Origin: a virus
Reading direction: 5' to 3' (one strand)
IMG/VR virus record: IMGVR_UViG_3300005914_000091
Coordinates: 1 to 24,497 of that record
Length of the DNA stretch: 24,497 nt
Of the stretch, positions 3,862 to 23,588 are shown one piece after another; position 1 is the first letter of the stretch; each line of letters opens with the position of its first letter. The position numbers were made by a program, and so were the translations under genes. The notes beneath the pieces are model-generated. The model had not been told where the DNA came from and ran no database searches. It worked only from the letters and a program-made list of their open reading frames with translations.

Positions 3862-4563
3862 ATGGACGTCCCATATGATATCAACAACACACTAGACTTA
3901 ATTAAATTAAAGTTTTATAATGAATGGTTATATACTGCTCATATTTACGATGAAGGCGATAGCCAATTTCATCAAGATTTAACAACGCAAGTAGTTTCAC
4001 AATATTTTGATCCATTGGCATTGCCCAAAGACGCTCATATTCTTGATCTCGGTTGTGGTCCTGGCTACTTTTTAGATGAGATGCAAAAACGTGCATACAC
4101 GAATGTCGTTGGTATTACATTAAGTCCAGGAGATCAACAACTCTGTCGGAATAAAGGCCATAATATTAAAGGATATGACCTTTCGTTCTTGCCCCAGAAA
4201 GACGGCTACCACGATGAAAGCGTAGACTTTATTTTCTTAAGACATGCACTAGAACATTCACCTTATCCTATCTTTAGTTTAATGGAATACAATCGTGTTC
4301 TAAAGCAAGGCGCGAAGATTTATATCGAGGTACCTGCCCCAGACTGTGATCGTAAGCATGAATATAACTTGAATCATTATAGTATCTTTGGACACAATCA
4401 ACTTGCGGCCCTTTTACAACGCACTGGTTTCAGTATAGATTCATTTAATAATTTAGAATTTGATCTGAACGTAGGCAAAGACGAAAATGGCAATGATATG
4501 TCTGCAACTGAAAAATATTATTGCATCGTGGCCACCAAAGCACAGCCATTAGATATTAAATAG
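3862..4563 (+). CDS. class I SAM-dependent methyltransferase (Methyltransf_11-like)
   Basis: The 233-residue protein has the class I methyltransferase fold signature. Motif I is L-D-L-G-C-G-P-G at residues 61-68. An acidic strand end and S-V-D-F-I-F-L-R-H-A-L-E-H make up motif II ('fD.v....vlEH'), and V-L-K-Q-G-A-K-I-Y-I-E-V-P is the 'LkpGG.~~ie~P' motif. This layout is common in methyltransferases acting on small molecules, sugars or lipids. It lacks the DPPY/NPPY or PCQ motifs of typical DNA methylases. Given the sugar epimerase and aminotransferase upstream, methylation of a glycan is a reasonable guess, but no substrate is shown by the sequence. It has its own late-promoter motif and a good Shine-Dalgarno. 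Confidence 0.82.
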   Translation: MDVPYDINNTLDLIKLKFYNEWLYTAHIYDEGDSQFHQDLTTQVVSQYFDPLALPKDAHILDLGCGPGYFLDEMQKRAYTNVVGITLSPGDQQLCRNKGHNIKGYDLSFLPQKDGYHDESVDFIFLRHALEHSPYPIFSLMEYNRVLKQGAKIYIEVPAPDCDRKHEYNLNHYSIFGHNQLAALLQRTGFSIDSFNNLEFDLNVGKDENGNDMSATEKYYCIVATKAQPLDIK

Positions 4564-6391: not shown

Positions 6392-9313
6392 ATGGCCATA
6401 GATCAAGAAACATACAATACACGACTTTTCAAAAACTTAGATGTGCGAGGTTATAAGCCAGTACCTAAGGATGCAAATAATGAGAGAACCAATCCACAAC
6501 TTGCAGAAATAATAGAGTTTCAATTCATTAAAGACGGTGAAAACTACGGCAAATGCTGGGCAACCATCGACAAAGCATCACAATTAAAAATATACTACGA
6601 TACTAAGGTCTCGGAAAGTCCTCCAGGCCAAACAAAAGGAGTAGAATACGATGACTCCTGGTATGGCTTAATAAAACACCTAAAAAAATGGGCAATGGAT
6701 AAACAATTATCATTCGATTTGATAGACAATCCAAAACAGATAAACGGTGACATGAAGCAAAGGGAACATTATAAAATGAAAGAAAAAACAAATGAAGCGT
6801 ATCATGCAGTCAACAAAACAACTTCGTACAACGACAACATACCAAATGTAAAAGTTGTTATACAGCATGATAGAGCAGTACAAGAAGGCGAACAACGTTG
6901 GAGAAATGTACAGAAAATCTTCGTAGAAAATACAGAAGGTGAAAGATTTGCGGTCCCTACTAGAATGCCTGGCATTGCACGAGTCTATGGTAGACACGTA
7001 GCAGAAGGCGGAACACCTTATGATGAACGTGGTAAGCACATCACTGCATTAGTAGAAGAATACACTAAAATGGCGGGATTTGTCCGCGCCACTCGGAAAG
7101 GACAATTTAATGAATCAGTTGCGAAACTGATAGCAGAAGGCATCAACCATCACAAATCATTAAAAGAATCATTGCAAAGAATGCAAAGTCATAGAGGTTA
7201 CAATCATTACTTCGAGTCTTGGACTCCACCATTAATGGAAGATGAGAGTGATTCATCCAGCATCGCAGAGATGTTTGCACAAGACACAATTGATCCACGA
7301 ATTGAAAGTGTTTTACCTATTCTAAACAGATTAAACAGTGGCATCATTAATGAAATTGAAGAAGTCAATGAGTTAGATCAGTGGGCTAAAGGAATCACGG
7401 AGATTACCGAAGCGCAAGAAGAGCGTCCATACATTTGCGTACATGCGCGAAAAGGCAGACACGAATGTCATGCGTCATCTTCATACGAAGCCGTTAAGAA
7501 AGCCGCGGATCATTGGAAATTAAAGTCAACGGCAGGCATTGATGCTTATCTAGCAGATGTTACTCATAGTACAGCGTCACTTGAAGAAGATTCTGGTTGT
7601 GCATGTGGATGTGGACCAAAAGACAAATGCACATGTGATGCGAGTTGCACTAAATGCGACTGTGCGAAAGACGACCTGAAAGAAGGGGCAATGTCTGAAA
7701 TTCACATAGATGCTCAAGAAATGAGCAAAGAAGAATTTACAAAGAAACACCCCAAATTTGCCAAAGATTATGATTCAATTAATGCGTCTGCTCGTGATGA
7801 GAAAAAACCGACACAGGGTGAACTTGCTTTGCAAGGAGAACTTAATTTAAAAGAAGAATCGGTTTCCAAATTTGACGTTAAAGCTTTTGTCGCTAACCTG
7901 GAAAAGCAATATTCAGATGATGAAGGCAGTATTAAGCTTCTTGTTAAACAAAGAGTGTTAGAACTGAAGGCAGAATACCGAAAAAGTAAGCACGGGGACG
8001 CCAACACAGCAAAGAAAATACGGTTTCTTGAGCAATACCTACAACGTGAAGGGTATGCTCAAGTAGGTACTGCCGCAACGGCAGCCGAGAGAGAAATGAA
8101 GAAGCAGATTGGTACATTTGGTAGAGGGAAGATAGACCCCTCAGGAGCTGATAATATGGATAGCAAAATTTCAATAGGTAAAGCATTAAGTGGGATTATA
8201 GGCATGGCCGCAGAGAGTCTTAACGAGTTCCAAGAAGAAGACTTCGATGATGATCGTGAAGATGCACCCAAAAAATACAAACCTATATTAGTTGATATGG
8301 AAGGTAATGAAGTAGATTTGCCGTATCATACCAAAGACTTTAGAGGAGATCCTCTTACAGTAATAGGCTTCGAAGCACCTAGACACACAGCATCATCAGG
8401 AAGAATCTATACAGACACTGATAGAAGTTTTTTCCCAAGTGTAGCAAAATTAAAAATTATAAATCACGAATTTGATGACAATTTAGATGAGGCCGGCATG
8501 CCTTCGTCTGTTATTAAAAACAAACAGAGATTGGCTAGTATGTCAGATATTGAATTAGCAAAACTTCTCGGTAGCAAATCAAGTGAAGAACTAAAACAAA
8601 TGGCATGGAGACACGGCTACAAAATGAAGTCTAATTACTATATAGACAGAGTTGCCAGGGGTTCTAAAGTAGATGAATCTGGTACGAAAACAGGTGCGCA
8701 TGGTTATACTGTCCACACTGACGGTGCCCCATTAAGTTTTGCAGACTGGTGTAGCGAAAACAAGAGCGAAGATGCAGTATCGACAGATAATCGCAGTAAG
8801 GACGAACTAGAAGCATCATATAAAGAATACCGGAATGCAGTATCCTCTGCTCGCATGCAAGAGGACAATGAATTGTCTGAGATTAGAAAGTTGTCGGGCC
8901 ATACCAAAGAAGCTAGTGTTGATGAAACGAGCGCAGGTGGCATGGACTTTGCTGGACATTTTAAAACAGGACCAGCTGGTCAGTGGAAGAATACAGGCAA
9001 GACTAAAGGTAAGCCTGCTAAAGTAGGTGACTTGGTTGGTGCAGAAGAAAGTGCAGATCCCTTGAAAGAAGACGAGATAGAATATGGAGAAGGTGATCTT
9101 GTAATCCTCAGAGGACAATCATACTACTTGCATATTGATGGAAACGGTACTATATGGGCTGAGGATGATGACGGCGGAAGCTATGAGTTTATCCCAGGCA
9201 CTGAACAACACCATGATCCTGCAGGTGAGAAAGAAGAAGAGATCGATGATATTGATTTCGATCTAAACGAAGCAAATGACTTGCTCAATATTATCAAAAA
9301 CATCAGAATATGA
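6392..9313 (+). CDS. 973-residue phage protein with eight-cysteine metallothionein-like cluster; probable virion or internal head protein
   Basis: The longest gene in the window. No enzyme motif is visible. The N-terminal part (about 1-330) has a region near 130-235 with many R and K residues and the segment V-A-E-G-G-T-P-Y-D-E-R-G-K-H-I-T, which I recall as conserved in marine T4-like phages. Around 347-390 a second module reads Y-I-C-V-H-A-R-K-G-R-H-E-C, then A-D-H-W-K-L-K-S-T-A-G-I-D. It is followed at 403-424 by eight cysteines (C403, 405, 407, 413, 415, 419, 422, 424) arranged CxCxCx5CxCx3Cx2CxC. The rest is acidic, low in hydrophobic residues and looks modular. Many L/I-x-E sites could be prohead-protease cleavage points. 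Late expression next to terminase suggests packaging or virion use. The function is unknown. Confidence 0.7.
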   Translation: MAIDQETYNTRLFKNLDVRGYKPVPKDANNERTNPQLAEIIEFQFIKDGENYGKCWATIDKASQLKIYYDTKVSESPPGQTKGVEYDDSWYGLIKHLKKWAMDKQLSFDLIDNPKQINGDMKQREHYKMKEKTNEAYHAVNKTTSYNDNIPNVKVVIQHDRAVQEGEQRWRNVQKIFVENTEGERFAVPTRMPGIARVYGRHVAEGGTPYDERGKHITALVEEYTKMAGFVRATRKGQFNESVAKLIAEGINHHKSLKESLQRMQSHRGYNHYFESWTPPLMEDESDSSSIAEMFAQDTIDPRIESVLPILNRLNSGIINEIEEVNELDQWAKGITEITEAQEERPYICVHARKGRHECHASSSYEAVKKAADHWKLKSTAGIDAYLADVTHSTASLEEDSGCACGCGPKDKCTCDASCTKCDCAKDDLKEGAMSEIHIDAQEMSKEEFTKKHPKFAKDYDSINASARDEKKPTQGELALQGELNLKEESVSKFDVKAFVANLEKQYSDDEGSIKLLVKQRVLELKAEYRKSKHGDANTAKKIRFLEQYLQREGYAQVGTAATAAEREMKKQIGTFGRGKIDPSGADNMDSKISIGKALSGIIGMAAESLNEFQEEDFDDDREDAPKKYKPILVDMEGNEVDLPYHTKDFRGDPLTVIGFEAPRHTASSGRIYTDTDRSFFPSVAKLKIINHEFDDNLDEAGMPSSVIKNKQRLASMSDIELAKLLGSKSSEELKQMAWRHGYKMKSNYYIDRVARGSKVDESGTKTGAHGYTVHTDGAPLSFADWCSENKSEDAVSTDNRSKDELEASYKEYRNAVSSARMQEDNELSEIRKLSGHTKEASVDETSAGGMDFAGHFKTGPAGQWKNTGKTKGKPAKVGDLVGAEESADPLKEDEIEYGEGDLVILRGQSYYLHIDGNGTIWAEDDDGGSYEFIPGTEQHHDPAGEKEEEIDDIDFDLNEANDLLNIIKNIRI

Positions 9314-14996: not shown

Positions 14997-16028
14997 ATGA
15001 GAGACGAATTTACATGCAAAGAACATATCCTTTGGTTTATGATGACCAATGCCATTAGCTTGTCTCATTACGATCATAAATTTATTTCCAATATGCAAGT
15101 GTTCACGCACGAAAAGAAACAAATTACAAGCAACCAATCAGCGTTATTTAATAAGTTACTGGGTAAATACACAAAGCAATTAATTAAATGTAAAAAGGAT
15201 CCAGTAGAACTTGTAAAACTTCCATGGAAATGCGAAGTAATTTCAAGTCTGCCTCAATATACTAATGCTAATGTTGCCTACGATTCTGAGAATAACCTAT
15301 TAACAGTTAGGGCGCCATTCAAAAGGCAGTTCCTTCAATATCAGCAGGGAAAGAAGGGAAATCCATGGCTATGGAATCCAACGAAAAAACGATATGAGGC
15401 TGTACCCGATACAAGAGCATTACGGGTTGCATATGATCATTTGCCCAAGTTTTTCAATACTGTGTATCACGATGGCCTCAATGATCTAATAGCCGAGATG
15501 GAAAAAGAAAAACAGCAATTCAATCGGCCAACACTGACCATTATTAATGGAGAATATGTTGTTGCAGTTTCCAATAAAATATTAGATGAGAAACTCGAAG
15601 GAATAGAACTTAATGCTACACCACAATGCCTGTATCAAATGTCATTACTGGGCATCAGCGTAGACAGCATCATCTTACAAAACGATCCTAAGTTGCTGTT
15701 TGCTTCTAAATACGCTAATGAATGTGATGTAGATGATTTAGATAAGATTCTGTCATGGATAGCTGAGTTGGGTTGTCGTTACCTGAGCCACCAATACAGC
15801 ATGGGTGGAGAAATCGGCGGAGAAGTAAGACGGGCACTTGAAAAGGCAGGCATAGCGTTAATACCACCTGGGCCTAAGTTCGACAAGATAGCGAAGAAAA
15901 AATGTAACAACACCTTGCCAATGTTGTGTCAATTTACTTCTACTATTAACTCGGACCAACATCATGGAGCCGGTGCTGTTGGTAAAATAATTGTAATAAA
16001 AAATGGAAGAGCGATAAAAATATTATGA
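14997..16028 (+). CDS. phage protein with HARP-like module, probable partner of UvsW
   Basis: This 343-residue protein is of unknown function. Near residues 94-150 it reads A-Y-D-S-E-N-N-L-L-T-V-R-A-P-F-K, then W-L-W-N-P-T-K-K-R-Y-E-A-V-P-D-T-R-A-L. The strand-strand-W-x-P-x-x-K-x-Y-x-x-P-helix pattern resembles the HARP module that binds ssDNA or forked DNA in annealing helicases. The N-terminus has a helical H-Y-D-H-K-F-I-S-N and an I-T-S-N-Q-S-A-L-F-N-K-L-L module. The C-terminal half is compatible with a compact alpha/beta domain (G-I-A-L-I-P-P-G-P-K-F-D and I-I-V-I-K-N-G-R). Its stop overlaps the uvsW ATG (ATGA at 16025-16028). The HARP call is a pattern match by eye, not a domain search. 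Confidence 0.55.
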   Translation: MRDEFTCKEHILWFMMTNAISLSHYDHKFISNMQVFTHEKKQITSNQSALFNKLLGKYTKQLIKCKKDPVELVKLPWKCEVISSLPQYTNANVAYDSENNLLTVRAPFKRQFLQYQQGKKGNPWLWNPTKKRYEAVPDTRALRVAYDHLPKFFNTVYHDGLNDLIAEMEKEKQQFNRPTLTIINGEYVVAVSNKILDEKLEGIELNATPQCLYQMSLLGISVDSIILQNDPKLLFASKYANECDVDDLDKILSWIAELGCRYLSHQYSMGGEIGGEVRRALEKAGIALIPPGPKFDKIAKKKCNNTLPMLCQFTSTINSDQHHGAGAVGKIIVIKNGRAIKIL

Positions 16029-18040: not shown

Positions 18041-18628
18041 ATGGCTAAGGCGAAGGTTCCGATTGAAGAGAAGTTTGAGAAACAAGAGTTTGACTTATTT
18101 GAGGCAATTACTGCTATCGATAACAAAGATTATGGTTATTACGATAGACTAACTCCAGAACAGCAAAGGAAGTTTGTTCCTTATATGATGTTACATTGGA
18201 TCAGTGCGGTAAACGGTTCGCGAAAAATGGCACAGTATTATTTACAGAGTGTAGACTATCATGCTAACAAGTACGTGTTTAATGAAAATGTGATCAAGCA
18301 TCCTAAACTACAGTGGTTGATGTTGTGTTCAGCCAGTCCCGGTATTGGTAAACAATATCATGCATGGATACCGCAAATTAAAGCAGGTGTATCTAAGTTG
18401 AGAGACAAAGCAATACCAAAAGATATTAAAACGTATTTTAAAAAGATATATCCTGCACTAACAGTGGGAGATTTGGCAGAAATGTCAGAAGCATATTGCG
18501 ATCAACATAAACGCAAAATGTATTTGGCAAGCAAATTCCCTGAATTAAAATTTGATGAGGTAGAATTACTGAGTGACATCGTTACCGAAAATGACATCGA
18601 AGAATACGAAAAAGAACTCGGCAACTAA
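18041..18628 (+). CDS. 62: clamp-loader small subunit, gp62-like
   Basis: The 195-residue protein is close in size to T4 gp62 (187), which with four gp44 subunits loads the gp45 clamp. Shared features by eye with T4 gp62 are an early L-F-E-A-I-T-A-I-D-N-K-D-Y segment and a stretch of helices ending in P-K-L-Q-W-L-M-L-C-S. The matching feature of gp62 after that is the P-x-G-x-x-Y-x-x-W pattern, here P-G-I-G-K-Q-Y-H-A-W. The rest is helical and charged. Identity between gp62 proteins is low, so this is a pattern and length call. The gp44 partner is not adjacent and must lie outside the window. The end overlaps the zinc-finger gene by 38 nt. Confidence 0.7.
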   Translation: MAKAKVPIEEKFEKQEFDLFEAITAIDNKDYGYYDRLTPEQQRKFVPYMMLHWISAVNGSRKMAQYYLQSVDYHANKYVFNENVIKHPKLQWLMLCSASPGIGKQYHAWIPQIKAGVSKLRDKAIPKDIKTYFKKIYPALTVGDLAEMSEAYCDQHKRKMYLASKFPELKFDEVELLSDIVTENDIEEYEKELGN

Positions 18629-19298
18629 ATTCGGTTGTGACTTCTGCGGTCGTAAATTTCTTAGAGAGAGTACGATTGAAGTACACCTATGTGAAAGTAA
18701 ACGTAGATGGAGTGACAAAGGCCTTAAAGGCAATCGTATTGGGTTCGCCGCTTGGTTAAACTTTTATGCAAAGAATACGCCAACCAAAAAGCAAAAAACA
18801 TATTTGGATTTTGTTAAAAGTTCCTATTATATTGCATTCGTTAAGTTTGGTCATTATTGTGTTAACATAAGATGCATCAATATCAATCAATATGCAGATT
18901 GGTTACTGAAGAGTCAAATCAAGATAGACAAGTGGACGAGTGATACAAATTACACTAGATTTATTGTGGAGTATCTTAGAGCAGAAGATCCATTAGATGC
19001 AATTGCTCGTAGTATAGAATCTGCGATTAACATTGCACAGGACGCAAAGATAGAGAACCACGATACTTTTAGATATGGTCCTCCGAATAAAATCTGTTAC
19101 GAAATAACATCAGGTAGAATCTCTCCTTGGATTTTGTATCAAAGTAAATCTGGAGTAGAGTTTTTAGGGAAATTAGATTCAGGTCAACAAAACATGATAT
19201 TAGAATACATCGATCCAGAACTATGGGCCATTAAGTTCTTAAGAAACACTGACATCATTAGTGAAGTAAAAGATTTACTCAATCAAGCAGGTTATTAA
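18591..19298 (+). CDS. zinc-finger (C2HC-type) conserved phage protein, unknown
   Basis: A 235-residue product. The start is set at ATG 18591; an earlier GTG at 18573 is less likely. The N-terminus holds C16-D-F-C19, a 12-residue loop, then H32-L-C34, resembling a C2H2-type finger but with only one residue between the last two ligands. The finger follows K-N-T-K-K-N-S, a basic arm, and precedes K-R-R-W. The rest is helical and aromatic (N-R-I-G-F-A-A-W-L-N-F-Y, D-F-V-K-S-S-Y-Y-I-A-F-V-K-F-G). Further on are I-S-P-W-I-L-Y-Q-S and I-D-P-E-L-W. I recall this family from marine T4-like phages without a function. A nucleic-acid binding role is inferred from the finger and the basic arm. Confidence 0.65.
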   Translation: MTSKNTKKNSATKFGCDFCGRKFLRESTIEVHLCESKRRWSDKGLKGNRIGFAAWLNFYAKNTPTKKQKTYLDFVKSSYYIAFVKFGHYCVNIRCININQYADWLLKSQIKIDKWTSDTNYTRFIVEYLRAEDPLDAIARSIESAINIAQDAKIENHDTFRYGPPNKICYEITSGRISPWILYQSKSGVEFLGKLDSGQQNMILEYIDPELWAIKFLRNTDIISEVKDLLNQAGY

Positions 19299-19700
19299 AT
19301 GGCCAGTATAGTATCTAAAAAACTTGATAATAGATTCACTGGCTATAAACATTTTAAATATCGTGCTAATTTGACCTCGTCCCAGCCAGTGCCAGAGATG
19401 TTTAGTTCAACACAAGGCGGCTATGCTGATTTAATCAATATCATAGACCACGTTAAATTGCGAGATTGGTGCTGGGATACTTGGGGACCAAGCTGTGACT
19501 TAAAAGACTATATTAGAATTGCTGAACTAAGAGTATTTCTTGCTGTCAATGAGCGCACCAGACAGTCTGAAGATTATGAACTTAATGAACATTGGTGCTT
19601 TTCTAATGAATCAATAGTAAACACCAGAATAGGAAGAGAACGTCGAATTTATTTAGCAGGTGATGCAGAACTTGCATGGCTAGGCCTAAAATGGCAATAA
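19299..19700 (+). CDS. conserved phage protein of 133 residues, unknown
   Basis: The start ATG at 19299 directly follows the previous stop. It is rich in Trp (D-W-C-W-D-T-W-G-P-S) and has L-K-D-Y-I-R-I-A-E-L near the middle. The C-terminal segment E-H-W-C-F-S-N, then R-R-I-Y-L-A-G-D-A-E-L-A-W-L-G-L-K-W, looks like a compact beta-hairpin plus strand and may be a cousin of other small T4-like phage proteins ending in a similar way. No catalytic motif is visible. Its last 25 nt overlap the dioxygenase gene. Confidence 0.55.
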   Translation: MASIVSKKLDNRFTGYKHFKYRANLTSSQPVPEMFSSTQGGYADLINIIDHVKLRDWCWDTWGPSCDLKDYIRIAELRVFLAVNERTRQSEDYELNEHWCFSNESIVNTRIGRERRIYLAGDAELAWLGLKWQ

Positions 19701-20398
19701 ACGAATTACACTATGACGGTAAAGGTTATGTCATTGAATATAAGGTTGTGGCAGATGAATTACTGGATGCAATCAGTGACAAACTAGATACCTGTTATCC
19801 AGTCAGAGCATCTACACATAGAAAAAAATATGCAGAGGCAGAAGACACACAGAAACTGCAAGGCGTTGCTGTTTGGTGGTCACAACTGACTGATGAATGG
19901 GATGAAGTTCAGACAATTAACAATTTGGTTTATCCAATAATTCAACAACATATGCCTAAGGCAAAGTTCTATGCGAGTGACATTGTAACTATTAATGGAC
20001 CTTCTCGTTGGATTGGTCCGCATGTTGACACGCCTCATAGATTCACAGAATACAATGACGTAGCGCCAGACGAACTCTTGGGCATACAAGTCATTATACC
20101 ATTAGAGACACTAGACGAGACTACAGGGGCTACCGGCCTGATCCCTTTCAGCCATAGAGAAGATTGGGATATACAAGATTGTTACGATGGTGTACATGAT
20201 GATATGTTCAAAGACGAAGCAGTACAGCACGAGTTACCAAAAGGGTCGGTGTTGTTCTATAACACTCGATTGATGCATTCTACAATGCCATTAAATTTAC
20301 CCAAAAAGCGATCTATTCTCTTGCTTAACTATTTACGGGATGATATAATACAATCTGTAACAAAAATTGACAATATATGGAGTAGTAATGGCAAATGA
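19676..20398 (+). CDS. 2OG-Fe(II) dioxygenase, PhyH (phytanoyl-CoA dioxygenase)-like
   Basis: The 240-residue protein has the iron-binding facial triad of 2-oxoglutarate dioxygenases: H116-x-D118 in G-P-H-V-D-T-P-H-R and H201 in R-L-M-H-S-T-M-P. R212 in K-K-R-S-I-L-L-L-N-Y sits where the 2OG carboxylate is bound. The spacing (about 83 residues between D and the distal H) and the G-S-V-L-F-Y-N-T-R-L segment fit the PhyH family. Such enzymes are frequent in marine phages and hydroxylate small molecules, nucleobases or proteins. ATG 19691 is an alternative start that removes 5 residues. Placement beside DexA and gp62 hints at a nucleotide or DNA target, but that is only inference. Confidence 0.8.
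   Translation: MARPKMAINELHYDGKGYVIEYKVVADELLDAISDKLDTCYPVRASTHRKKYAEAEDTQKLQGVAVWWSQLTDEWDEVQTINNLVYPIIQQHMPKAKFYASDIVTINGPSRWIGPHVDTPHRFTEYNDVAPDELLGIQVIIPLETLDETTGATGLIPFSHREDWDIQDCYDGVHDDMFKDEAVQHELPKGSVLFYNTRLMHSTMPLNLPKKRSILLLNYLRDDIIQSVTKIDNIWSSNGK
20321..20349 (+). promoter_or_regulatory. possible internal sigma70 promoter for the exonuclease gene
   Basis: TTGCTT (20321-20326), 17-base spacer and TATAAT (20344-20349), lying inside the end of the dioxygenase gene. The predicted +1 is near 20356, giving a 32-nt leader with GGAG at 20379-20382 before ATG 20388. Confidence 0.4.
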
Positions 20399-20927
20399 TA
20401 TAATGATAGATATGGAAACATTAAGCACGAGAGCCGACTGTGTGATATTAACTATTGGTGCTGTGCGATTTGATCCCAGGGGCATTGGTGTAGTAGAGCG
20501 CATTGAAATCAGACCCACAATAGAAGAACAAACTGCCGATTTTGACAGACATATTGATGAAGAGACTCTGGATTGGTGGGGAAGACAATCAGATGATGCA
20601 ATCAATGAATCAATGGGTGATACAGGTCGAGTACCATTTAAAGTCGCAATGGAACAGTTGCACAAATTTTGTTGGAATCAAGGAAAGATATGGTCCAATG
20701 GTTCTGTTTTTGATGTAATCATAGCTGAACATGCATTCAATCAATTAGATATAACTCATCCATGGCGATTCTGGAACATCAGAGACTGTCGAACAATATA
20801 TAATCTTTGTAAAGTATCTTTAAAAGATGGTTCTCATGTAACCTCTCACAAAGCAGTAGAGGATGCTGAACACCAAGCAATAGTAGTGCAACGAGCATAT
20901 TTAAAATTAACGGAAGCAGGATTGTAA
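20388..20927 (+). CDS. dexA: DexA-like 3'-5' exonuclease (DEDD superfamily)
   Basis: A 179-residue protein. The start ATG 20388 has GGAG at 20379-20382. Exo I is D8-M-E10 in I-D-M-E-T-L. Exo II is S-N-G-S-V-F-D109, and Exo III is S-H154-K-A-V-E-D159-A-E-H, giving the four metal-binding acidic residues of the DEDDh class. T4 DexA, a 3'-5' DNA exonuclease of 227 residues, shares this short layout, and Rv2179c-like RNases are close relatives, so the RNA or DNA preference is uncertain. It overlaps the previous gene by 11 nt, and its final base is the first base of the mini-DnaE start (TAATG). Confidence 0.82.
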   Translation: MANDIMIDMETLSTRADCVILTIGAVRFDPRGIGVVERIEIRPTIEEQTADFDRHIDEETLDWWGRQSDDAINESMGDTGRVPFKVAMEQLHKFCWNQGKIWSNGSVFDVIIAEHAFNQLDITHPWRFWNIRDCRTIYNLCKVSLKDGSHVTSHKAVEDAEHQAIVVQRAYLKLTEAGL

Positions 20928-21511
20928 TGCATCAATCGGATATTGACATAGATTTTGGTGATAGGACGAAGTTGTTAAAAGTAATACAACATATTCCTGC
21001 ATCCATGCGTAATGTCAGTCCGATTAAAAAGCATCCTACTGGTGTATACATTACAGAAGTTCCGTATGATCCTGTTAATGATATGTGTGCATTGGATTAC
21101 AAAGAAGCCGATGCTCGTAAATATTTTAAATTAGATTTGTTGAATGTAAATGTGTATCAACAAGTTAAAGATGAACATCATTTGATTAGTCTTATGGCAG
21201 AGCCAAATTGGGAACGCCTTAAGGAAAAAGACTTCGTAGAGCAATTAATACACTTAAATAAACAATATGATATTTTACAAAAAATGCCACAAGAAATAAA
21301 TAGTATTCCAAGATTAGCAATGTTCCTGGCTATCATTAGGCCTGCTAAAAGAACGCTCATAGGAAGAACGTGGGAACACATTAGTAAAACAGTATGGATA
21401 GATAACAATCGTGGGTACACATTTAAGAAATCGCATGCTGTAGCATACGCACAATTAGTTGTGGTACATATGAATTTAATCGAAGAAGGAAAAACCCGTG
21501 ACGGAATATAG
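20927..21511 (+). CDS. miniature DnaE-like protein (Pol III alpha palm fragment with catalytic aspartates)
   Basis: The 194-residue protein reads S-D-I-D-I-D-F-G-D-R at its start, matching the P-D-x-D-x-D-F motif of bacterial Pol III alpha (DnaE/PolC), where two Asp bind catalytic metals (here D7 and D9). K-H-P-T-G-V-Y-I (35-42) matches DnaE 'KH..GvvI'. K-L-D-L-L-N-V (68-74) matches K-F-D-F-L-G-L, whose Asp is the third catalytic residue (D70). I-P-R-L-A-M-F-L-A-I-I-R-P-A (127-140) matches the 'l...aLiRPG' region, and F-K-K-S-H-A-V-A-Y-A (166-175) the 'FnkSHAaaYa' motif. DnaE is about 1160 residues; PHP, most of the fingers, and the clamp- and tau-binding parts are absent. It is probably a conserved marine-phage family, since similar short proteins come to mind. 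The activity is unknown. Confidence 0.72.
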   Translation: MHQSDIDIDFGDRTKLLKVIQHIPASMRNVSPIKKHPTGVYITEVPYDPVNDMCALDYKEADARKYFKLDLLNVNVYQQVKDEHHLISLMAEPNWERLKEKDFVEQLIHLNKQYDILQKMPQEINSIPRLAMFLAIIRPAKRTLIGRTWEHISKTVWIDNNRGYTFKKSHAVAYAQLVVVHMNLIEEGKTRDGI

Positions 21512-21761: not shown

Positions 21762-22308
21762 ACTAGAACTTACGCTAATTGATGAAAGTAATCCTTTATT
21801 AAAAGAACCCTGCACTGCCTGGGATTTTACATCAGACGGTTCACCAACTGAACTGGTGTCTGCTTTGACAAGAGTTATGTTTAGCCCTAATCATGGTGGT
21901 ATTGGGTTGGCCGCACCACAGTGTGGAGTGATGAAAAATATATTTGTCATGGGAAGCAATGAAAATTTGATTGCTGTTATTAATCCTGTCATTGATGAAT
22001 TAATTGGCGACAAAGAGATGTACTTAGAAGGTTGTTTAAGTTATCCTGATCTTTGGTTACATGTACTAAGACATCCAGAATGCATCGTATCGTATCAAAC
22101 ACTCGACGGCACTGCGGTTGAAAGAAAACATCTTACGGATCTACAAGCAAGAGTATTTTTACACGAATTTGATCATTTATTAGGTATAACATTTGAAGAA
22201 CGAGTACAGAGTAAACTTAGTTTAGAATTAGCTAAGAAGCGTAGAGTAAAGAAGAGGCGTCAAACAGAAAAAGCTATCAAAAGAATGAAAGCGAAAGCAA
22301 CTCAGTAG
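21751..22308 (+). CDS. def: peptide deformylase
   Basis: A 185-residue protein. The start ATG 21751 is preferred over 21736 on length and spacing. All three PDF motifs are present: G-I-G-L-A-A-P-Q (50-57), E-G-C-L-S (93-97) and H-E-F-D-H (138-142). These give C95, H138 and H142 as metal ligands and E139 as the catalytic base. The enzyme removes the N-terminal formyl group from new proteins; marine phages often carry it, and cyanophage PDF acts on host photosystem proteins. Beyond the usual core there is a strongly basic tail (A-K-K-R-R-V-K-K-R-R and K-R-M-K-A-K). The gene closes the plus-strand replication block and meets the minus-strand gene head-on. Confidence 0.95.
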   Translation: MGNKLELTLIDESNPLLKEPCTAWDFTSDGSPTELVSALTRVMFSPNHGGIGLAAPQCGVMKNIFVMGSNENLIAVINPVIDELIGDKEMYLEGCLSYPDLWLHVLRHPECIVSYQTLDGTAVERKHLTDLQARVFLHEFDHLLGITFEERVQSKLSLELAKKRRVKKRRQTEKAIKRMKAKATQ

Positions 22309-22694
22309 GTTCGTTTTACTAACGTAATAGATTTTCTCTTAACACGTTTCTTTTGAAAATCAGTCATACTAACAACAGGGCCGTGTAGTAAATTTAGTGC
22401 TTTGTTGTTGAATGTTCTGATAAAAGGTTTGAAGGCTGTCCATTCATCTTTCAAGAACAGGTTGATTGGTATTTGTCTATTCGATTCCCACCACCATACA
22501 TCGCCTAATTCTAAAAACAGAACTTTAAGATCAGCATCATGTATCGCTCCGTAATCATACATAGTAGTGACCAGATCATCTCGGTTCTGTATGATGCCCA
22601 CGTGGTCTTGTCCAGCATACTGAAGCACCGATATGAAAGGGTGAGTTTCGGTCAGTTTCTGAAAATAATCTAGTGGGTTCTTTGCATCTGTCAT
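22302..22694 (-). CDS. conserved phage protein of 130 residues, unknown; only minus-strand gene
   Basis: ATG is at 22694 on the minus strand and the stop at 22302, overlapping the deformylase stop by 7 nt. The protein has H-P-F-I-S-V-L-Q-Y, then W-W-W-E-S-N-R-Q-I-P-I-N-L-F-L-K and F-K-P-F-I-R-T-F-N-N-K, and ends K-K-R-V-K-R-K-S-I-T-L-V-K-R. The triple Trp and basic tail look distinctive and conserved rather than random, and no strong plus-strand frame competes here. I recall similar proteins from marine T4-like phages, function unknown. A weak late-promoter-like GTTAAATA is on its strand at 22712-22705, but its support is thin. Confidence 0.62.
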   Translation of the reverse strand: MTDAKNPLDYFQKLTETHPFISVLQYAGQDHVGIIQNRDDLVTTMYDYGAIHDADLKVLFLELGDVWWWESNRQIPINLFLKDEWTAFKPFIRTFNNKALNLLHGPVVSMTDFQKKRVKRKSITLVKRTY

Positions 22695-22787: not shown

Positions 22788-23588
22788 ATGTCTTACACGA
22801 CATCAGTTTACACATACACAGTCCGACAGATTGTTGTCGTCCTGTCAGGTACAAGTCCGAGGAAATATATGCCAGTTTATGCAAAACCATTAACACTAAA
22901 CAAGGGTGTTGACAATCAACTACAGTTTCAGTTTCTGAATCAAGAGCAGAAGCCAGTAAACCTGTCGGCATTAGCGGCCGCTAACTTGCAAATTTCTTTC
23001 AGAGCATTAAACTCAGACGGTACCTCGGTCCTTTTTAGAAAGGCATTAGAACCCGTATATGATGTTACTGGCATCTTTGTGCTAAACACCTCTGCCGCAC
23101 TGATAGAAGACATTGTTGCTCAAAAAGGATCGTATTCTTTAGAATGGCCTAGTGGAAATCTAAAGTTACCGGTATTCACTGATTCAAAAGCAGGCGCACG
23201 TGGGGATTTAAATATTGTAGATTCGGTTCTACCGTCATTCGTCCCTTCACAACTTGTCACGATTCCAAGCTCCCAGACGCTCCCTGCCGCAAATGCCAAT
23301 GCGAATACGGTAGCTGTCACGTTTTTCTCAAGTACGATTGATACGCAATCTAATCCAATCCTATCGACCTCACTTGATTACGCAAATTTTGTTGGTAATA
23401 TGACAATTCAAGGTTCAACTACGTCTGATGCAGACTATTATGACATCAGTTCATATGAATATGGCAACGCCGCAAATGGTGCATCTGAGTCTGGTACAAT
23501 TGGTTACACGATCAATGGGTATCATCCATTCATCCAACTTAAATTTACTGCAAATGTGGGTAACATAACAACGATTCTAGCAAGATAA
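22788..23588 (+). CDS. virion-type structural protein
   Basis: The 266-residue protein has no charge-rich core and is rich in Thr, Ser, Asn, Ala and beta-type strands. A typical opening V-Y-T-Y-T-V-R-Q-I-V-V-V-L-S-G leads into P-V-Y-A-K-P-L-T-L-N-K-G-V-D-N and Q-L-Q-F-Q-F-L-N-Q-E-Q-K-P-V. I recall this pattern as a conserved virion protein of marine T4-like phages. The C-terminus I-Q-L-K-F-T-A-N-V-G-N-I-T-T-I is another strand-rich domain. The late-promoter motif upstream fits a structural role. The ribosome binding site AAGGAG is 11 nt from the ATG; a nearby out-of-frame ATG at 22783 opens only a short shadow frame. Its place in the virion is not known. Confidence 0.6.
   Translation: MSYTTSVYTYTVRQIVVVLSGTSPRKYMPVYAKPLTLNKGVDNQLQFQFLNQEQKPVNLSALAAANLQISFRALNSDGTSVLFRKALEPVYDVTGIFVLNTSAALIEDIVAQKGSYSLEWPSGNLKLPVFTDSKAGARGDLNIVDSVLPSFVPSQLVTIPSSQTLPAANANANTVAVTFFSSTIDTQSNPILSTSLDYANFVGNMTIQGSTTSDADYYDISSYEYGNAANGASESGTIGYTINGYHPFIQLKFTANVGNITTILAR

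Follow-up and report, generated by a model that had tools for sequence, protein, structure and literature searches.

A 194-residue phage protein resembles one half of a split, minimal C-family DNA polymerase

The virus record IMGVR_UViG_3300005914_000091, a stretch of 24497 bases to which we refer in its full length as the window, encodes a protein of 194 amino acids (aa), here called the C-piece, that is almost certainly half of a split C-family DNA polymerase. An earlier note on this DNA had taken it for a stand-alone, stripped palm of the alpha subunit of DNA polymerase III (Pol III alpha, DnaE). That view is not borne out, because the nucleotide-binding half of the enzyme (GRGS, Pol III alpha residues 279 to 393 approximately) is encoded elsewhere, by a separate gene for what we call the N-piece, found in 21 of 25 records. 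We propose that the window protein is probably one subunit of a two-chain accessory minimal C-family DNA polymerase. Our finding correctly and independently recovers half of a system already in the literature.

Results

The open reading frame at 20927-21511 encodes 194 residues, and each motif quoted in the earlier note lies where it had been placed. The C-piece belongs to PHROG 11778, ‘DNA polymerase’ (E 1.2e-54); as a single sequence it gave no useful match in Pfam, NCBIfam or the sequences of the PDB. An AlphaFold2 model built on 66 aligned sequences (predicted local distance difference test, pLDDT, 91.0; predicted template modelling score, pTM, 0.81) matches the palm and fingers of Pol III alpha over nearly its full length, in keeping with the fold expected of it. 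In structural alignment with VIA-align, residues 1-192 correspond to E. coli 398-784 (5fkw; Z 7.5, 187 residues aligned, 4.3 Å), and the model also matches 398-781 of 4jom (Z 8.1, 183 aligned, 4.2 Å) and, with the highest score, Taq 459-841 (3e0d; Z 9.0). The top 12 matches, which we take to be C-family polymerase entries, cover Z scores of 5.8-9.0 with 183-188 residues aligned, and the first unrelated match below them reaches only Z 3.3. Polymerase entries presumed to be of the same family also ranked first in a Foldseek search with the model (best E 5.5e-3), and a profile comparison (hhalign) with an unsplit mini-DnaE from a 203-kb contig aligned only 45 columns (E 0.046), although KH..G and KxD fall in register within them. 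Because of the PHROG 11778 match and structural Z scores of up to 9.0 against 3.3, the resemblance to Pol III alpha exceeds chance.

The partner emerged from a search of six related records with PF07733, which matched a second small open reading frame in all six and not the C-piece. In the phage of the window, represented by the 92-kb IMG/VR contig G001 (100% identical to the window over 16257 bases), the N-piece has 168 aa and matches PF07733 (E 1.3e-9) and PHROG 11127 (E 5.7e-40). The two genes are about 42.5 kb apart on this contig, the C-piece at 42686-43270 and the N-piece downstream at 85795-86301. The GRGS nucleotide-binding motif, which is absent from the C-piece, is found in the N-piece, and GxGRGSS occurs in 66/66 aligned N-pieces. 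The alignments used for folding comprised 65 of 137 C-piece loci and 65 of 99 N-piece loci, plus the query in each; two loci with a stop in the stretch (L120 and L178) and one with an internal stop (L031) were left out. The N-piece model (pLDDT 90.6, pTM 0.70) aligns from residue 69 or 76 onwards with E. coli 278/279-393 (Z 9.9-11.3, 2.4-2.6 Å), including 4jom (Z 11.3, 93 aligned, 2.4 Å); the best Z overall is 12.2, and all 15 structural matches listed are polymerases that we likewise assume to be of the C family.

Together the two pieces span DnaE 279-784 with no overlap. The C-terminus of the N-piece, GVGRGSSVSSFVLFLIGIHRINSLYYDLDIKEFLK, corresponds to the GRGS...ERFLN segment of DnaE and ends just before the stretch in which the C-piece starts. 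In all 21 paired genomes, that is, those among the 25 searched records in which the N-piece was found, the distance from the start of GRGS to the end of this protein is 33-35 residues, and the EFL-type motif lies 1-3 residues before that end; in the C-piece frame, 4-39 residues precede DxDxD. The split point is therefore constant and falls in the loop between DnaE 393 and about 398.

The active site of Pol III alpha can be followed through the C-piece residue by residue. E. coli DnaE has PDFDVDF from position 400 (Asp 401, 403 and 405), KxD at 553/555, RPG at 639 and KSH at 758-760. By motif alignment, the C-piece segment S-D5-I-D7-I-D9-F carries the equivalents of D401, D403 and D405, K68 and D70 those of K553 and D555, R138-P139 those of R639-P640, and K168-S-H170 that of KSH, H170 being H760. 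D401, D403 and D555 are described as the Mg2+ ligands of DnaE in passages of PMC3919608, which also give the extra Asp405 as a mark of DnaE, PolC having Asn there; D9 of the C-piece is this DnaE-type extra Asp. The claim in the earlier note that the catalytic triad is kept as D7, D9 and D70 thus stands for D70, the counterpart of D555, and needs correction for the other two, the pair being D5/D7 rather than D7/D9 in the motif alignment with DnaE. In the model, the secondary structure assigned by DSSP places D7 and D9 on strand 6-10, with D5 just before it, and D70 on strand 68-73.

Conservation of these positions is complete. D5, D7, D9, H36, G39, K68 and D70 are invariant in 66/66 aligned C-pieces (the query included), which confirms the conservation of the aspartates that had been anticipated, and so are R138, P139, K141 and H170; the same 11 residues are invariant in the 21 paired genomes, which are more widely spread. 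H760 is proposed in passages of PMC8485763 to act as a steric gate for deoxynucleoside triphosphates (dNTPs) against ribonucleotides. The invariance of H170 therefore points to dNTP use, although at the level of sequence this is suggestive only. Across 21 pairs of seven close C-piece relatives (the window's own sequence excluded), the ratio of nonsynonymous to synonymous substitution rates (dN/dS) is 0.03-0.13, which indicates strong purifying selection on close C-pieces.

The great reduction in size relative to DnaE, to which the earlier note had drawn attention, is real and can be assigned to particular regions by counting residues between anchors. D403 and H511 of E. coli are 108 residues apart, their counterparts D7 and H36 in the C-piece 29, so that about 79 residues are absent at the position of the thumb and no C-family thumb is found there; we take the E. 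coli thumb to be 433-510, about the size of the missing stretch. D555 to R639 spans 84 residues in E. coli and 68 in the C-piece, and P640 to H760 spans 120 and 31, respectively, leaving about 89 residues of the fingers absent. The C-piece is also without everything past the KSH helix and everything before DnaE residue 397 or so. Since the aligned ranges of the two pieces (278-393 and 398-784 only) leave out the PHP, clamp-binding, HhH and OB parts, the pair is not a standard DnaE.

Both halves are widespread. The terminase of the window is closest to the PA5oct/Paride group (48% identity). The N-piece was found by profile or family search in 21 of 25 distinct C-piece records, and these 21 include 12 of 12 phage genomes picked for diversity, each of which carries both pieces. 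It is also recorded for 59 of 60 phage records with the C-piece, the exception being a 109-kb UNVERIFIED record; these 60 are the ones listed out of 69 phage records with the C-piece, and RAS14, among the other nine, has both. The 141-kb (non-jumbo) Alishewanella phage Slicko01 is a carrier with a weak N-piece match (E 1.4e-15). In IMG/VR, at least 529 C-piece stretches and at least 597 N-piece stretches were confirmed, each among the first 600 candidates. Neither fusion nor adjacency of the two was seen: 0 of 278 loci hold both pieces (tblastn with the proteins of the window's phage, E 1e-4). A B-family polymerase (PF00136) is present in 5 of 6 records, so that its presence alongside the C-piece, as the earlier note supposed, is borne out in relatives; the sixth is G001, and PF00136 was found neither in this 92-kb contig nor in the window, either of which may be a fragment. 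As a separate observation on annotation, the annotated C-piece start in Atu_ph07 (4067-4561 of locus L279) falls after DxD, and the open frame starts upstream, with a Met five residues ahead of DxD; the gene as publicly annotated is probably truncated.

To survey the neighbourhood, 141 C-piece loci were reduced to 82 representatives (<92% identity), of which 66 have an upstream flank and 68 a downstream flank longer than 2.5 kb. The genes of the window served as tblastn queries (E 1e-3), a search that can miss diverged neighbours. The features of the window are collected in Table 1, in which counts out of 66 and 68 refer to these loci.

Table 1. The C-piece and its neighbours in the window
Feature	Coordinates	Strand	Evidence or occurrence
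C-piece: 194-aa palm/fingers fragment of a minimal C-family (DnaE-like) DNA polymerase	20927..21511	+	PHROG, AlphaFold2 model, motif alignment
DexA/Rv2179c-like DEDD 3'-5' exonuclease	20367..20927	+	PF16473 E 9e-34, PHROG 255
Converging gene, PHROG 11637, function unknown	22302..22694	-	E 1.6e-31; 63/66 and 67/68 loci
Gene near the C-piece	22788..23588		53/66 and 63/68 loci (tblastn)
Protein of about 240 aa, PHROG 11058, zinc-finger-like in relatives	18573..19298	+	45/66 loci (tblastn)

Best kept among the neighbours tested is the converging gene. The exonuclease gene starts with TTG at 20367 as listed, ATG at 20391 being possible too, and its stop codon TAA overlaps the ATG of the C-piece in a TAATG junction, as had been noted. 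A DexA-like gene lies near the C-piece in 43 of 66 loci and no more than 60 nucleotides away in 29; it was not found by tblastn in the other 23, among them RaK2, PA5oct, Phosso and Slicko01. In loci that have it, identity of the C-piece to that of the window is never below 59%. The PHROG 11058 gene occurs upstream about as often as the exonuclease and reaches more distant phages; in RaK2, PA5oct and Phosso, proteins encoded upstream of the C-piece give weak zf-C2H2 Pfam matches under the curated cut-offs, and we regard the PHROG 11058 protein as a neighbour that is at most putatively part of the enzyme. Downstream of the C-piece, RaK2, PA5oct, Phosso, CBB and XaC1 carry genes for a primase and a helicase; in PBECO4 a primase gene is found there, with an AAA ATPase gene after it.

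Three further genes of the window deserve mention. A phytanoyl-CoA dioxygenase-like gene (PF05721 E 9e-11; 19676-20398, +) sits within the replication module, upstream of the exonuclease. A 343-aa open reading frame (14997-16028, +) between an AAA ATPase-like gene and a UvsW-like helicase gave no convincing Pfam or PHROG match, and a 973-aa protein (6392-9313, +) encoded after the terminase gene has a cysteine-rich stretch, CACGCGPKDKCTCDASCTKCDC.

Discussion

We propose that the C-piece is the C-terminal half of the enzyme, which would bind Mg2+, DNA and the primer, and that the N-piece is the N-terminal half, which would bind the nucleotide via GRGS. The chains might associate non-covalently to rebuild a Pol-beta-like palm with reduced fingers, and the enzyme so formed could add dNTPs to a primer. 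We infer that an active heterodimer of the two is likely, from the complementary fold, the invariant residues, the fixed split point and the co-occurrence of the genes. Because thumb, PHP, clamp-binding and OB domains are lacking, the pair would be expected to be poorly processive, acting distributively or otherwise tethered, and hence to serve an accessory task. Such work beside the B-family polymerase could be primer extension or hand-off, gap filling, or repair, and the presence of primase and helicase genes immediately downstream, seen in several phages, counts in favor of an accessory polymerase. Any specific role of the pair in the replisome is tentative.

Several observations weigh against this interpretation. 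With respect to fold, Foldseek returned no match at E <= 0.001, the C-piece profile could be aligned by hhalign to E. coli DnaE on its own in the RPG segment only, and the first 68 residues or so of the N-piece lie outside its structural matches. How DNA would be gripped is unexplained without a thumb. As to co-occurrence, 4 of the 25 records have no detectable N-piece: three IMG/VR contigs (121, 191 and 201 kb) that could be fragments, and the unverified record. Tree distances of the N-piece and the C-piece correlate (r 0.84), but the correlations with a DnaB-like helicase are as high (0.85 and 0.89; partial correlation 0.33); there is thus no specific co-evolution signal for binding between the two, and the mirror-tree result was not used as evidence of it. 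Finally, the primase-helicase neighbourhood is not universal, since the helicase is about 33 kb from the C-piece in XacN1 and about 30 kb in RAS14.

The earlier note had likened the C-piece and the adjacent exonuclease to a split polymerase and proofreader. A polymerase-proofreader pair of this kind would fit the TAATG overlap in the window, the distance of 60 nucleotides or less in 29 of 66 loci, and, in 8 of 15 records, an exonuclease gene of the PF16473 or PF00929 family no further than about 6 kb from the C-piece. Yet in 23 of 66 loci the search gave no DexA-like neighbour, neither exonuclease family is nearby in 7 of 15 records, and the converging minus-strand gene is better kept (63/66). 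We therefore consider such a pairing doubtful. As the missing half of the enzyme the exonuclease is not borne out, because it was found in none of the loci whose C-piece is less than 59% identical to that of the window and in only 43 of 66 loci overall; on the same synteny we rejected it as an obligatory partner. The gene, limited to closer relatives, is a candidate clade-specific partner. The most elaborate version of our proposal, in which an active thumbless two-chain polymerase would prepare primers for hand-off to the B-family enzyme and the adjacent DexA-like exonuclease would proofread in the window's clade, seems rather improbable to us as a whole.

Alternatively, the fold might be kept in a pair that does not polymerize and instead serves as a decoy or regulator bound to primer-template, dNTP or host Pol III partners, a role also suggested in the earlier note. 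Loss of the thumb and of about 89 finger residues may leave DNA binding weak, and a B-family polymerase is usually present (5 of 6 records). A decoy would, however, have no need of the catalytic aspartates and of the equivalents of K553, R639 and H760, which are invariant in 66/66 and 21/21 sequences, nor of the GRGS nucleotide-binding half, which is kept too. Because of this invariance of catalytic and steric-gate residues, together with strong purifying selection in close relatives, we disfavor the decoy and judge it unlikely.

Two other explanations fare worse. In cyanobacteria DnaE is encoded by two genes, and inteins join the parts into a full-length enzyme. Split inteins might likewise join the phage pieces into one polypeptide, as two genes with one conserved junction would allow, and the related phage MIJ3 is reported in passages of PMC6892783 to have an intein-bearing split B-family polymerase. 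This is very improbable: N-pieces end 1-3 residues past the EFL-type motif in 21/21 genomes and thus leave no space for an N-intein, and the C-piece frames leave 4-39 residues ahead of DxDxD. Decaying, functionless fragments of an acquired DnaE gene, to which the small size and missing domains might point, are refuted by the dN/dS of 0.03-0.13, the hundreds of environmental homologues (at least 529 and 597) and the invariant active site, and their probability is practically negligible.

An active two-chain polymerase would demonstrate how small a part of Pol III suffices for templated synthesis, and that a C-family active site can be built from two chains, across a subunit interface. It would also place bacterial (C) and archaeal/eukaryotic (B) polymerase families side by side in one phage replisome. 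To our knowledge, the active pair would be the smallest C-family enzyme. The question is testable, given the small subunits (168 and 194 aa) and the isolated relatives PA5oct, Paride and RaK2.

A literature search on split DNA polymerase III in phage returned only Iyer et al. 2021 (PMC7824862). Passages of that paper describe, for group 2.2 jumbo phages, a minimal Pol III alpha beside a family B polymerase; it is split into two proteins whose genes lie far apart and which likely reconstitute an enzyme. The authors suggest its possible use for one strand or for repair, and see in the split enzyme a possible reflection of an ancestral Pol III module. By these passages, the system in the window resembles theirs in T4-type replication genes, in relatives that mostly carry a B-family polymerase (5 of 6 records) and, on contig G001, in its two separate proteins from distant genes; nothing essential differs, and the member in the window comes from an uncultured phage. 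From the phages and the description, we take PHROG 11127 and PHROG 11778 to be the two halves of their system, and several GenBank records already label one or both. Relative to the same passages, our analysis adds the DexA-like neighbour (‘DexA’ and ‘proofreading’ do not occur in the text of PMC7824862), the conservation of the steric gate, the precise position of the cut and a non-jumbo carrier of 141 kb. No laboratory test of the split pair was found in the literature, searched mainly by titles and abstract openings, nor in passages of PMC6892783 and PMC12926913.

Compared with E. coli Pol III alpha (DnaE, 1160 aa), the split pair shares the order of the palm motifs, the equivalents of D401/D403/D405/D555, K553, R639-P640 and H760, and, with both pieces combined, the fold over 279-784. 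It differs in consisting of two chains, in being shorter by about 190 residues over 398-784, and in lacking PHP, thumb and anything past the fingers helix near 784. The cyanobacterial split DnaE, mentioned in passages of PMC3919608, is like the phage pair in its two genes, whereas the phage pair is minimal and has no space for an N-intein.

An unsplit counterpart also exists. The 203-kb contig G003 encodes, in the stretch 148216-151842, a mini-DnaE of 574 aa that matches PF07733 and PF17657 and has no PHP match. Like the split pair it has a C-family palm and fingers without a PHP match; it differs in being one chain with longer fingers (PF17657), and the distance from the second Asp of DxD to the last Asp is 122 residues, compared with 63 in the C-piece. 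The same contig holds the unsplit mini-DnaE, the split pair and a B-family polymerase together, and a relative of the mini-DnaE (39% identity over 95%) is found in the 484-kb uncultured phage LR756508.1.
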